From: an uncultured Alphaproteobacteria bacterium | Lineage (GTDB): Bacteria; Pseudomonadota; Alphaproteobacteria; HIMB59; GCA-002718135 | Reading direction: 5' to 3' | Assembly: GCA_902623545.1 (NCBI GenBank) | Contig: CACNUI010000008.1 | Coordinates: forward strand, 1-60,221 | Length of the DNA stretch: 60,221 nucleotides | Part shown: piece after piece, positions 18,918-27,492 of the stretch | How the letters are laid out: every line of letters starts with the position of its first letter | How positions within the stretch are numbered: the stretch's first letter is position 1 | The notes under the pieces: generated by a model | Told to the model about the DNA's origin: nothing | The model's database searches: none | Seen by the model: the letters and a program-made list of their open reading frames with translations, nothing else | Translations under genes and position numbers: made by a program

Positions 18918-18992
18918 GGTCTCGTGGTGAAATGGATATCACACGTGTCTTCGGAACATGGATTTGGGGTTCGAGTCCCTACGAGACCGCCA
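18918..18992 (+). tRNA. tRNA-Arg (anticodon TCG)
   Basis: A 75-base cloverleaf including an encoded CCA. Acceptor GGTCTCG pairs with CGAGACC; D arm GTGA/TCAC; anticodon stem CGTGT/ACATG (one G-T pair) around loop CTTCGGA, giving anticodon TCG; four-base variable loop; T arm TGGGG/CCCTA closing TTCGAGT; discriminator G. It reads CGN arginine codons. It lies between the DUF924 gene and ypeA. Confidence 0.96.
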
Positions 18993-22187: not shown

Positions 22188-23591
22188 TTATAAGTCCTCT
22201 ACTGTTGCAAAAGAACCTTTGATTGCAGATGCAGCAGCTATTGCAGGGCTAACAAGATGTGTTCTACCTTCTCTACCTTGTCTACCTTCAAAATTTCTAT
22301 TTGATGTTGATGCACATCTTTCTTGTGGTTTTAGTTGGTCAGGATTCATAGCTAAACACATGGAGCAACCTGGCTCTCTCCAATCAAATCCTGCTTCAAT
22401 AAAAATTTTATCTAAACCCTCTTCTTCAGCTTGTTTTTTAACTAAACCTGAACCAGGAACGATCATTGAGTCTACAGAAACTTTTTTGCCTTCTACAACT
22501 TTAGCAACTTCTCTTAAATCCTCAATTCTTCCATTAGTGCAAGAGCCAATAAACACTTTGTCAATTTTAATTTTTTGTATTTCTTGTTTGGGTTCTAAGC
22601 CCATATATTCAAGAGAACGTTCCATAGCCCTCTTTCTATTTGGATTACTCTCTTCTTGAGGATTTGGTACTATACCATTTATAGCAACAACGTCTTGTGG
22701 GCTTGTGCCCCAGGTAATTTGTGGTGAAATATCTCCGGCATTAATTAAAATTTCTTCATCATATTTTGCCCCTTCATCAGATGGAAGAGATTTCCAAAAT
22801 TCTACCGCTTTATCCCAATTATCTCCTGATGGAGCGTACGGTCTACCTTTTATGTATTCAAAAGTTTTTTCGTCAGGAGCGATTAAACCAGCTCTAGCAC
22901 CTGCTTCAATACTCATATTACAGATTGTCATTCTTCCTTCCATAGAAAGAGAGGAAATTGCATTACCAGCATATTCAATAACATAACCAGTTCCACCAGC
23001 TGTTCCTATTTTTCCTATTATATGAAGAATAATATCTTTTGCTGTAACACCTAAGTTTAACTTTCCTTCAACAGAAATTCGCATATTCTTTGCAGGTTTT
23101 TGAATTAAGGTCTGAGTAGCTAATACATGCTCAACTTCACTTGTGCCGATACCAAAAGCTAATGCACCAAATGCTCCGTGTGTTGCTGTATGACTATCAC
23201 CACAAACTATTGTCATACCTGGCTGAGTAATGCCTTGTTCTGGTCCAACTATATGAACTATACCTTGTCTACTATCTAATAATGGAAAAAGTGTAACATC
23301 AAAATCTTTGCAATTTTTTTCTAGTGTTTCAACCTGAATTCTACTTTCTTTATTTTCTATGCCTTTAGATCTATCTGAGGTTGGAACATTGTGATCAGCT
23401 ACAGCAAAAGTACTTTCAGGTCTTCTAACTTTACGATTATTGTTTCTTAAACCTTCAAATGCTTGAGGGCTCGTAACTTCATGAACAAGGTGTCTATCGA
23501 TATATATAAGACAAGTTCCATCTTCTTGTCTATCAACAAGATGATGTTCCCAAATTTTATCAAAAAGAGTTTTAGGATTATTTATTGTCAT
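22188..23591 (-). CDS. leuC: 3-isopropylmalate dehydratase large subunit
   Basis: The [4Fe-4S] subunit of isopropylmalate isomerase (467 residues from this start). Cluster cysteines are in [10 protein letters not shown] and in the later [24 protein letters not shown] is the aconitase-family substrate motif. I choose ATG at 23591 ([15 protein letters not shown]), which matches known LeuC starts. A longer in-frame start at 23687 would only add a basic artefact read through the rplS tail. The chosen start still overlaps rplS by 14 bases, implying coupling of ribosomal and leucine genes. Confidence 0.95.
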
Positions 23592-24183
23592 CCGATTTAT
23601 TTTCGGCTGCTTTTTCCTCTTCTTTACTAGATTCCTCTGCAGCTTCTGCTTTAGTTTCTTCAGCTGGTTTGGCTTCTTCTTCTTCAACTTTTGTCTCTGC
23701 TTGTTTTGCTTCTACCTCTGCAGCTTTTGGTTCCTCTGCAGCATTTGTATCTGTATCTGCAGTTTTTGTTTCTTCTACAGGTGGAGCCTCCTCTATATAT
23801 TCATATTGATCGGCTTCATCACCCCTATCTTTATCTGCAATCCTTGCTTTCTTTCCAGATAATTCTCTTAAATAATATAGCTTAGCTCTTCTTACATCAC
23901 CTTTTCTAACAACTTCAATTTTTTCTACTAATGGACTGAATAAAGGGAATACTCTTTCAACACCCTCTCCATGAGATATTTTTCTAACAGTAAAGTTAGA
24001 GTTTACTGAATTATTTTTTCTTGCAATACAAATACCTTCAAATGCTTGAAGTCTCGACTTACTTCCCTCTGTAATTCTTACAGTAACTTTTAGAGTATCC
24101 CCTGGACGAAAAGCTGGAACTCTTTTTTTTGAAGTTAACTTTTCAATTTGTTGTTTTTCAAATGTCTCTAATAAATTACTCAT
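23578..24183 (-). CDS. rplS: Ribosomal protein L19 with acidic C-terminal extension
   Basis: Residues 1 to about 118 are a normal bL19 ([51 protein letters not shown]-type segment). The protein then continues for some 80 residues of Glu/Ala/Lys/Thr/Pro low-complexity sequence rich in EE and AEE motifs, making 201 residues against about 115-130 in most bacteria. L19 sits at the 30S/50S interface bridge. The tail is predicted to be disordered and acidic. trmD lies one base upstream and leuC overlaps its end. Confidence 0.94.
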
Positions 24184-24184
24184 T

Positions 24185-24883
24185 TTATATTTCCTTTTTA
24201 AAAAGATCTGGTCTTAATTCTTTAGTTTTTTCAACCGATTTTTCTTTTCTCCATTTATCAATTTTTTCATGATGACCTGATGTTAAAACATCTGGAACTT
24301 CATGTTTATTGCCCTGAATATCTTCCCAGATTTGTGGTCTGGTATAATGAGGATATTCAAGAAGATTATTAGAAAAAGATTCTTCTAATAAACTTTGTGG
24401 CTGCCCTAATACTCCAGGAATGAGACGAATACAACCTTCAACTAACACCTGAGCAGCAATCTCACCCCCAGAAAGGACATAATCACCGATACTTATTTCC
24501 TGAAAACCAAGAATTTCTATAGCTCTTTGGTCAACCCCCTCAAATCTACCACATAAAATAAGCATTTCATCATATTTTGATAGATTATTAAGTTTGGCTT
24601 GAGATAATTTCTGACCTGATGGTGTTAGAAAAATTTTGCAGTAATTATCGGTTTTGAACGTGATTGAGTTTAATGCTTTTTCTATCACATCTGGACGAAT
24701 AACCATTCCAGGACCTCCCCCAAAAGGTTCATCATCTACACTTCCTCTTTTATCAATTCCAAAATTATGTAGATTGACTATCTCTAGAGAAAATTTTTTA
24801 TTGTTTAATGCATTACCAATTACAGAATATCCTAGTGAGCCTGGAAACATCTCAGGATAACAGGTTAAAATTACTACTCTCAT
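24185..24883 (-). CDS. trmD: tRNA (guanine-N1)-methyltransferase
   Basis: Makes m1G37 in tRNAs, which prevents frameshifting. The 232-residue protein has [27 protein letters not shown], the trefoil-knot SAM site [13 protein letters not shown] and [13 protein letters not shown] at 24883 is preferred over an upstream in-frame TTG at 24892, because family members begin with this strand and the ATG lies one base past the rimM stop. Confidence 0.96.
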
Positions 24884-24884
24884 A

Positions 24885-25391
24885 CTAATCAAGAATACCA
24901 GGTATTGGATTAGCTATAATTTCTTTTTTGCTGATATTAACTGATAAAATATTTGTTTTATCAAAAGGTATAAGGGTAAGTTTGGTATTATATTTGACTT
25001 CTAATAAATCACCTGCTCCAAAATTTTGAACACTTATAACTTTTCCAATTCTAGTATTGTCTTTCAAGAAAATCATGCATTCAATAAGATCGTTTATGAA
25101 AAATTCATTATCTTTTGTTTTTGGAAAAAATTTCTTATTTGAAAAAATTTTTTGACCTTTAAGCTCTAAAACATCTTCTCTAGAAAAGTATTTTTCAACT
25201 TGAACAACACACTTATTATTTTTAAATAAAATATTTTTAAAATTCCAAACAACTGAACCATCAAAATTATAATAATTTTTTAGATTTTTAAAAACTTCAA
25301 ACGAGGTAGTCATCATATTAACTTTTATTTCACCTTTTAATCCTACAGGAGATCCAAACTGACCAACAAGCATAATATCTTTTTTACTCAA
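24885..25391 (-). CDS. rimM: Ribosome maturation factor RimM
   Basis: Assists 30S head assembly by binding S19. The 168-residue protein has an N-terminal beta-barrel domain starting VGQFGSPVGLKGEIKV and a C-terminal PRC-barrel with LIECMIFLKDNTRIGKV and a typical final segment. It lies in the rpsP-rimM-trmD-rplS order common to most bacteria, 14 bp downstream of rpsP. Confidence 0.94.
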   Translation of the reverse strand: MSKKDIMLVGQFGSPVGLKGEIKVNMMTTSFEVFKNLKNYYNFDGSVVWNFKNILFKNNKCVVQVEKYFSREDVLELKGQKIFSNKKFFPKTKDNEFFINDLIECMIFLKDNTRIGKVISVQNFGAGDLLEVKYNTKLTLIPFDKTNILSVNISKKEIIANPIPGILD

Positions 25392-25405: not shown

Positions 25406-25918
25406 TTATTCTTTTTTAGCTTCTGCTTCTTCTGCTTTTGGTTCTTCAGCAGGTTGTACATCTTCAGCTGGTTTAGCTTCTGCTTCTTCTGCTTTTGGTT
25501 CTTCAGCAGGTTGTACATCTTCAGCTGGTTTAGCTTCTGCTTCTTCTACTTTTGGTTCTTCTGATGCAGCTTTCGCAGCTTCTTCTTTTTCTTTAGCCGC
25601 AGCTAAACGTTCCTGTGTTTTTTTCTTAGGTAGGTGTTTTTTTGTTTTTTCAGTAATAACTGGTTTTTCCATCACACCAAGATTGCTAAGAAAGATAGAA
25701 ATTCTATCTGATGGTTTTGCTCCTTTTGCAATCCATTCCTTTGCTTTGTCTAAATCCATTTTAACTCTATCAGCGCTATCCTTTGGAAGCATTGGGTTAT
25801 AGGTTCCAATTTGATCTATAAATTTTCCATCTCTCGCTCTTCTTGAATCAGCAACTACTATTCTATAAAATGGTCTTTTCTTTGCACCACCCCTTGATAA
25901 TCTTATTCTTACTGGCAT
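25406..25918 (-). CDS. rpsP: Ribosomal protein S16 with acidic repeat tail
   Basis: Residues 1-80 are a normal bS16 ([50 protein letters not shown]). A Lys-rich linker leads into a C-terminal low-complexity region in which a 19-residue unit ([19 protein letters not shown]) recurs, giving 170 residues in total against about 80-100 typically. The repeats are nearly identical at DNA level, so the array is recent or kept homogeneous. The L19 gene in the same operon has a similar acidic tail. Confidence 0.95.
25418..25558 (-). repeat. 57-bp tandem repeat in rpsP (about 2.5 copies)
   Basis: The sequence at 25418-25474 is repeated at 25475-25531, followed by a partial, slightly diverged third copy to about 25558. 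The 57-bp period equals 19 codons and keeps the reading frame, encoding alternating Glu/Ala/Lys/Pro residues. Copy number could vary between strains by slippage without a frameshift. Confidence 0.9.
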
Positions 25919-25930
25919 TTTATTTCCTTT

Positions 25931-27295
25931 CTAACTTATGTTTGGAGGAAGATTTCCTTGTAATTTTTGCATTAAATCACTGGGAATTCCTCCTTTGCCC
26001 ATTGATTTCATTCTCTTCATCATTTTTTGTGATTGGAGAAACTGTTTTAATAACCTATTAACGTCTTGAACTTTTGTTCCAGATCCTTTTGAAATTCTAA
26101 TTTTACGTGAAGCCTTTATAATATCTGGATCAGCCCTTTCTTTTTTTGTCATTGAACTGATTATAGCTATTTGTTTATCAATCATTGAATTAGAAATTTT
26201 ATTTTCTGCCATTAACTTCTGTGCCTTTGAAACACCTGGCATCATAGAAAGTAAACCGGAGACTCCACCCATTTTACCCATTTGCTTTAATTGATTGGCA
26301 AAATCTTCAAGATCAAATTTTCCTTTAGCGATCTTTTTTGCCATATCCTCCATTTCTTCTTTATCAATATTTTCAGCAGCCTTTTCGACAAGAGATACAA
26401 TATCTCCCATACCTAAGATTCTTTGTGCAATTCTCTCAGGATGGAAAGGTTCAAAATTTTCTACTTTTTCACCTATTCCTATAAATTTTATAGGAGAGTT
26501 TGTTATCGATTTAATTGATAGAGCTGCACCGCCTCTGCTATCACCATCTATTCTAGTTAAAATTGATCCAGTAATATTTATTGCATCACTAAAACTTTTA
26601 GCTACATTTGCAGCATCTTGTCCTGTTAAAGCATCTGCTACTAATAATGTTTCGTCAGGTTTAAACTTATTTTCAATTTCTATTAATTCAGTCATTAACT
26701 TTTCATCTACAACTTGTCGTCCAGCAGTGTCTAAAATAAGAATATCAAATAAATTTTTTTGAGCAAAGTCTATAGAATCATCAACAATCCTAGTGGCTGA
26801 TGATAGATTGTGATTAAAGAAATCTGAGCCAGTTTCTTCAGCTAATACTTTTAATTGTTCTTGTGCTGCTGGTCGATAAATGTCAGCTGATGCTAATAAA
26901 ATTTTTTTCTTTGAAGACTTCTTTAACAAATAAGAAAGTTTAGCAATTGATGTTGTTTTGCCTGAGCCCTGTAATCCACAAAATAATATTTTAGTTAATT
27001 GCGAAGAGGATAAATTTAGGGATTTATTTTCTGACCCAAGAATTTTTACAAGCTCATCTTGCACAAGCTTAATGATCATTTGATCTGGTTTAACAGATTT
27101 AAGAATTTCTTTTCCTAAAATGTTTGACTTGATAGAATTTATAAATTCTTTTACTACAACTAAGGAAACATCTGCCTCTAAGAGAGCAATTCTAATTTCA
27201 CGTAATGTAACTTCAAGATCTGTTTCTGATATAACAGCCTTACCCCGAATACTTTGAACAATTTTTTCAAATTTTGTGTTCAGTGTGTCAAACAT
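25931..27295 (-). CDS. ffh: Signal recognition particle protein Ffh
   Basis: SRP GTPase that delivers signal-sequence proteins to FtsY. From ATG at 27295 (MFDTLNTKFEKIVQSIRGK) it is 454 residues: N domain; G domain with GLQGSGKTTS, the DTAGRQ motif and TRIDGD; then the methionine-rich M domain (MGKMGGVSGLLSMMPG, MKRMKSMGKGG). An in-frame GTG at 27355 would add 20 residues but runs through the structured leader. The ATG has a good GGAG at 27300-27303 with a 4-base spacer. Confidence 0.96.
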   Translation of the reverse strand: MFDTLNTKFEKIVQSIRGKAVISETDLEVTLREIRIALLEADVSLVVVKEFINSIKSNILGKEILKSVKPDQMIIKLVQDELVKILGSENKSLNLSSSQLTKILFCGLQGSGKTTSIAKLSYLLKKSSKKKILLASADIYRPAAQEQLKVLAEETGSDFFNHNLSSATRIVDDSIDFAQKNLFDILILDTAGRQVVDEKLMTELIEIENKFKPDETLLVADALTGQDAANVAKSFSDAINITGSILTRIDGDSRGGAALSIKSITNSPIKFIGIGEKVENFEPFHPERIAQRILGMGDIVSLVEKAAENIDKEEMEDMAKKIAKGKFDLEDFANQLKQMGKMGGVSGLLSMMPGVSKAQKLMAENKISNSMIDKQIAIISSMTKKERADPDIIKASRKIRISKGSGTKVQDVNRLLKQFLQSQKMMKRMKSMGKGGIPSDLMQKLQGNLPPNIS

Positions 27296-27299
27296 AGTT

Positions 27300-27346
27300 C
27301 TCCAATAGCCTTTTGACTCCAGGGCACGAAACTCGTGGGCTAGAGT
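27300..27346 (-). promoter_or_regulatory. Pseudoknot-like leader element before ffh
   Basis: Read on the minus strand, 41 bases immediately upstream of the ffh Shine-Dalgarno contain three perfect Watson-Crick helices: ACTC (27346-27343) with GAGT (27319-27316); TAGCC (27342-27338) with GGCTA (27310-27306); and CACGA (27337-27333) with TCGTG (27329-27325) closing a GTT loop. The first two cross each other, an H-type pseudoknot topology. The last helix ends two bases before GGAG. Such placement could gate translation. No known riboswitch class matches by eye. Confidence 0.45.
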
Positions 27347-27492
27347 ACCTATCACAATTGTAACAAGCTCAATTCGTTTACAAATATAGGATTTGTTAAA
27401 GACCCTCTATTAGCTGAATAATTGAAAGTCAAGTATTCTTAAATATCCCATATTTACTGAGATTTATCGATAAATTAGGTTATAAAACAAAT

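Follow-up and report, generated by a model that had tools for sequence, protein, structure and literature searches.

The DNA directly upstream of ffh in an uncultured alphaproteobacterium raises two questions: what kind of RNA structure precedes this gene, and which gene of the cluster that follows does it serve? We have analyzed a stretch of 60,221 nt, referred to below as the window, from contig CACNUI010000008.1 of an uncultured Alphaproteobacteria bacterium (GCA_902623545.1; HIMB59). The ffh leader element lies on the minus strand, in the region of 27,300-27,346 to which the original prediction had pointed.

Gene order and features of the ffh locus

In the window ffh is the first gene of a cluster that continues with rpsP, rimM, trmD and rplS, and these five genes presumably form one operon. 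The ribosomal-protein genes downstream of the leader are rpsP, recognized by profile, and rplS, recognized by sequence. The features of the locus are as follows.

23578..24183, minus strand: rplS (L19), named from sequence and gene order
24185..24892, minus strand: trmD, named from sequence and gene order
24885..25391, minus strand: rimM, named from sequence and gene order
25406..25918, minus strand: rpsP (S16), with a TIGR00002 match at 25670-25912
25931..27295, minus strand: ffh, identified by homology, with its ATG at 27295
27302..27305, minus strand: TTGG box, overlapping the ffh Shine-Dalgarno sequence GGAG (27303-27300)
27316..27346, minus strand: hairpin H3, the ffh motif proper, ACTCTAG-CC-CACGA-GTT-TCGTG-CC-CTGGAGT
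27347..27368, minus strand: hairpin H2, GCTTGTTAC AATT GTGATAGGT, 9 bp, from minimum-energy folding and RNAalifold, abutting H3 on its 5' side
27404..27432, minus strand: promoter-like element TTGACT - 17 nt - TAGAGG, recognized by sequence, 57 nt upstream of H3

The promoter-like element stands 35-57 nt upstream of H2-H3. Judged by eye, its spacing is equal in the relatives L033, L083, L098 and L099, and the Pelagibacteraceae locus L111 carries a promoter-like TTGACA-17-TATAGT.

A conserved hairpin before the ffh start codon

H3 consists of a 7-bp outer stem, in which ACTCTAG (27346-27340) pairs with CTGGAGT (27322-27316) and includes one G-U pair, a CC/CC internal loop and a 5-bp inner stem, CACGA/TCGTG. 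Its 3' end is 20 nt upstream of the ffh ATG. H3 and the adjoining H2 are predicted both by single-sequence minimum-energy folding and by RNAalifold, and the Shine-Dalgarno sequence is unpaired in the predicted fold. The folding energy of the leader is slightly more favourable than expected by chance (z -1.6 to -1.9); since this alone is unremarkable, the case for the leader rests on conservation.

Relatives were collected by an Ffh protein search of named genomes, which gave 80 loci. Of these, 77 (L032-L108) belong to the window's group or lie near it; they are labelled mostly as uncultured Alphaproteobacteria, with a few Pelagibacterales or Pelagibacteraceae. Among 31 distinct relatives that were aligned, H3 is paired in 99.2% of cells, and 12 of them carry a UA to AU swap. 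Of 38 distinct versions, counting that of the window, 34 have all seven outer pairs and none has fewer than six. The outer stem differs between two clades, being ACTCTAG/CTGGAGT in one and ACATCAG or ACACCAG with CTGGTGT in the other (U-A for A-U), and C-G to U-A changes occur in single members of the window's group. The CC on the 3' side of the internal loop is invariant in the 31 aligned sequences. The conservation of H3 is far beyond chance, and H3 is a conserved RNA structure with compensatory changes. The original prediction of a structured, conserved RNA element right before ffh and outside the Ffh protein is borne out by these data.

The shape proposed for that element was a pseudoknot of three helices. 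All three can be read on the minus strand as proposed: ACTC (27346-27343) with GAGT (27319-27316), CACGA (27337-27333) with TCGTG (27329-27325), and TAGCC (27342-27338) with GGCTA (27310-27306). The first is just the outer portion of the 7-bp stem of H3. Covariation, which had been proposed as a check on all three, is found for ACTC/GAGT and CACGA/TCGTG, both parts of H3 with its compensatory changes, but not for the crossing helix TAGCC/GGCTA, where 78% of cells are paired and none of the pairs has changed on both sides. An H-type pseudoknot riboswitch that responds to a small ligand and covers the ffh ribosome binding site is therefore most improbable. The three helices do exist in the window, and 12 of the 38 distinct versions have an intact crossing helix; in the other 26 it is incomplete, no compensatory change accompanies it, and the Shine-Dalgarno sequence that it was held to cover is left unpaired in the predicted fold. 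SAM-II, SAM-V and preQ1-II riboswitches, with which the element had been compared, resemble the leader in being short RNAs beside a ribosome binding site, but the pseudoknot is not conserved here and an Rfam search of the window matched none of these or any other riboswitch family. No evidence was found to support a response to a small-molecule ligand. One tRNA, at 18918-18989, is all that exceeded an Rfam threshold in the window.

An N-terminal extension of Ffh, beginning at 27355, was also considered as the source of the conservation. It is excluded by frameshifts and stops in relatives: 1-nt deletions fall between the hairpin and the ATG in L039 and L058, and in-frame stops occur 5-6 codons before the ATG in L086, L090, L091, L094, L095 and L098. 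The conservation is thus not that of an Ffh extension.

Relationship to the ffh motif

The original prediction had assigned the element to no known class. Its position and anatomy are those of the "ffh motif" (Meyer et al., 2009; PMC2704228). That motif is a lone bulged hairpin whose bulge holds two almost invariant cytosines; it was described upstream of ffh in Pelagibacter and in many further Alphaproteobacteria, and a role in regulating ffh has been suggested for it. The Rfam family that bears the name and the anatomy of this motif is RF01793. In a literature search that had most subscription journals outside its scope, the phrase "ffh motif" was found only in PMC2704228, and RF01793 was named only in one rhizobial sRNA survey.

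Like RF01793, the element of the window lies directly upstream of ffh and has a 7-bp outer stem, an internal loop of two bases whose 3' side is CC, and a short inner stem; the architecture of H3 is the same as in RF01793 and in alignment A1. In L111, RF01793 scores 58.7 bits (gathering threshold 35 bits) at the site that corresponds to H3, and L083, a member of the window's group, shares with L111, in order, CACCAG, CGAG, TCG and CTGGTG. The window sequence itself is too divergent for the library model: RF01793 gave no match in the window or in its own genome even at E 10. A second model, R1, was built from 21 other alphaproteobacterial ffh-motif sequences. Its best five matches among 17 sources were five relatives of the window, each located where the motif is expected (11.1-13.3 bits, E 0.15-0.77), with L083 scoring best (13.3 bits, E 0.15); the window's own copy was not matched. 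In the 21 sequences from which R1 was built H3 is 100% paired, and 9 of its 11 pairs are doubly changed.

On position and anatomy, rather than on score, we identify the leader of the window as a divergent form of the ffh motif. That it is an unrelated, clade-specific structure which merely resembles the motif is very unlikely. Such a reading would account for the lack of a significant covariance-model score for the window and for an internal loop of CC/CC in place of CA/CC, but it leaves as coincidences the same gene and place, the same plan of 7 bp, 2/2 loop and 4-5 bp, and the presence of H2 abutting on the 5' side and of a TTGG box on the 3' side. Assignment to the ffh motif explains the pattern noted earlier, and it brings into a poorly understood RNA class a lineage whose copies escape the library model.

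A second hairpin and a TTGG box

H2 (27347-27368) was overlooked in the original prediction. It is 100% paired in the 31 distinct relatives, where its changes are one-sided only; in the outlier L099 the stem is different yet still paired. In the window's group 21 of 21 distinct flanks did better than dinucleotide shuffles at p<0.05 by a strict ungapped test. Elsewhere in the Alphaproteobacteria, the stretch 5' of H3, which the RF01793 model treats as 15 unpaired columns, usually folds into an H2, commonly CGGUCC...GGAUCG, one base before H3, and the H2 of the window is its counterpart. Variants that keep the pairing include CAGUCC/GGAUUG, CAAUCC/GGAUUG and CGGUUCA/UGAAUCG. H2 is a conserved RNA structure.

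At the TTGG box, which in the window's group overlaps the Shine-Dalgarno sequence, all 31 aligned sequences of the group have TATTGGAG unchanged. In 34 sequences from other Alphaproteobacteria, several of them closely related, so that these counts do not represent independent events, H2 beat shuffles at p<0.05 in 12 by the same strict ungapped test, and in 22 a TTGG followed H3 at a distance of 8-17 nt (background rate 0.01). The published ffh motif is a single hairpin, whereas H2 and the TTGG box recur across Alphaproteobacteria and are new here. The description of this RNA class thereby gains a second hairpin and a sequence box.

Many genomes (L112-L140) have a third hairpin, H1, before H2 and approximately 25-48 nt upstream of H3, often like CCGGAAG...CTTCCGG. 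Two further pairings were considered and set aside. A longer helix that closes H1-H3 in a 119-nt fold of the window has a 5' strand that differs, by eye, in relatives. An alternative pairing between the 5' strand of H3 and the Shine-Dalgarno sequence is possible in the window, and by inspection weaker in the ACATCAG/ACACCAG clade.

Distribution in Alphaproteobacteria

At E 0.01, R1 matched 185 of the 387 alphaproteobacterial genomes that were sampled. Among the matches listed for which an ffh was also listed, 61 of 63 share the strand of ffh and are no more than 400 nt upstream of it. In one of the two exceptions, G203, the motif is at a contig start and ffh near a contig end, which probably reflects a contig break. 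By inspection, ffh and rpsP are linked in nearly every genome for which both positions were listed; a test based on their linkage has no power, because the two genes are linked nearly everywhere.

Several individual genomes deserve mention. Two full-length ffh matches occur in G227 (C82:387-1670 and C114:45757-47058), with an R1 match, among those listed, upstream of the C114 copy only. Fourteen genomes gave no Ffh match at E 1e-100 (G097, G102, G116, G119, G127, G140, G143, G153, G170, G208, G216, G243, G252 and G254); this threshold is strict, and divergence or assembly gaps are possible causes. In family f2, of the same order, the ffh motif was not found; just before the ffh ATG, L030 (1459-1491) and also L031 have a terminator-like hairpin TCGGC...GCCGA with eight T after it, which is possibly an attenuator.

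The motif in a family without detectable SRP

The family of G098 comprises 18 alphaproteobacterial genomes, six of which reach 90% completeness or more with contamination of 5% or less. In none of the 18 did Ffh (TIGR00959) exceed the cut-off, the one match being of 17 bits, nor did FtsY (TIGR00064), with matches of 25.7 bits or less, and SRP RNA (RF00169) was not found in them. Control genomes were positive in all or nearly all cases in these searches. An order-level search covering ten genomes, all of this family, gave the same result for Ffh. In L143 and L144, which represent two genera, the place taken by ftsY in the window, after an mtaB-like gene beside dapF, is occupied by a thioredoxin-like gene. 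The family has thus undergone an apparent loss of the whole SRP pathway; we found no paper that reports it in literature searches with most subscription journals outside their scope.

RF01793 nevertheless scores over its gathering threshold in 14 of the 18 genomes. In the 11 loci examined downstream (L133, L153 and L157-L165) the start of rpsP closely follows the motif, and the same rpsP-like start is seen after it in L154-L156; in G098, G204 and G284 the motif and the S16 match are 35-40 nt apart. H3 is 100% paired in this family, with two pairs doubly changed (GC to AU and CG to UA), and in some members AC or GC replaces the CC on its 3' side. The full pairing and the double changes suggest that selection continues to act on the hairpin where Ffh is missing. 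The G098 family is a natural experiment that parts the RNA from Ffh and makes the question of its partner directly testable, and it points to a bacterial lineage apparently living without the signal recognition particle.

Possible function of the leader

Since bacteria without detectable ffh and SRP still keep the motif before rpsP, the leader probably controls ribosomal-protein genes, and it most likely serves rpsP-rimM-trmD-rplS. The likely partner thus differs from that suggested by the published ffh motif, being the rpsP part of the cluster and not Ffh. The interpretation that we favour somewhat is that the element constitutes the 5' leader RNA of ffh-rpsP-rimM-trmD-rplS and most likely acts as a ribosomal-protein leader, with S16 as the first guess for its ligand and L19 as the second. 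S16 (or L19) in excess over free rRNA would bind H2-H3 and the TTGG box, and the bound protein would block translation of the first gene; in the window this block would arise from the overlap of TTGG with the ffh Shine-Dalgarno sequence. Regulation by the leader, the identity of the bound protein and the block of initiation are all steps that we infer. There is about an even chance that the ffh motif as a whole has been tied to the wrong gene and is an alphaproteobacterial S16/L19 leader, present in about half of the sampled genomes and kept by one lineage that lost SRP, and that this leader comprises a TTGG box together with two or three hairpins in tandem.

Comparable leaders are known in other groups. 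A candidate S16 leader lies upstream of rpsP-rimM in Flavobacteria, and an L19 leader of Firmicutes and Flavobacteria is mentioned in the same work (PMC7247131). The former is like the leader of the window in its place before rpsP-rimM and in having S16 as predicted ligand; it belongs to another phylum, however, and the comparison is one of position and predicted ligand. The latter is comparable in that rplS is part of the cluster here, but no Rfam match to such a family was obtained in the window. No paper tying the motif to S16 was found, most subscription journals being outside the scope of the search. Mimicry of rRNA was also considered: in the E. coli rRNA operon, the rRNA searched, no look-alike was found, the best R1 match scoring 5.7 bits (E 2.3).

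Several points weigh against a ribosomal-protein leader. The copy in the window is matched by neither RF01793 nor R1, the argument for rpsP comes from one family only, and after a gene deletion a leader may simply pass to the next gene. A feedback loop, with the leader as sensor of Ffh or SRP RNA and ffh translation as its output, would agree with the placement of nearly all copies with a known ffh position directly before ffh. Such a loop, which is close to the SRP-responsive element originally envisaged, is nonetheless unlikely, because the motif is kept before rpsP, and covaries, in a family without detectable Ffh, FtsY or SRP RNA.

Less easily set aside, though still doubtful, is a passive or transcriptional leader with no protein ligand, its tandem hairpins either protecting the 5' end of the long mRNA of an essential operon or acting on RNA polymerase as a processive element. 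The position of H2-H3, 35-57 nt after a promoter-like sequence, is consistent with this, and retention before rpsP without Ffh fits it equally well. What such a leader does not account for are the conserved unpaired letters of the CA/CC internal loop and the TTGG box, which suggest that something reads the sequence and not the stem alone. With regard to S16 itself, a scan of viral contigs with this protein gave one locus.
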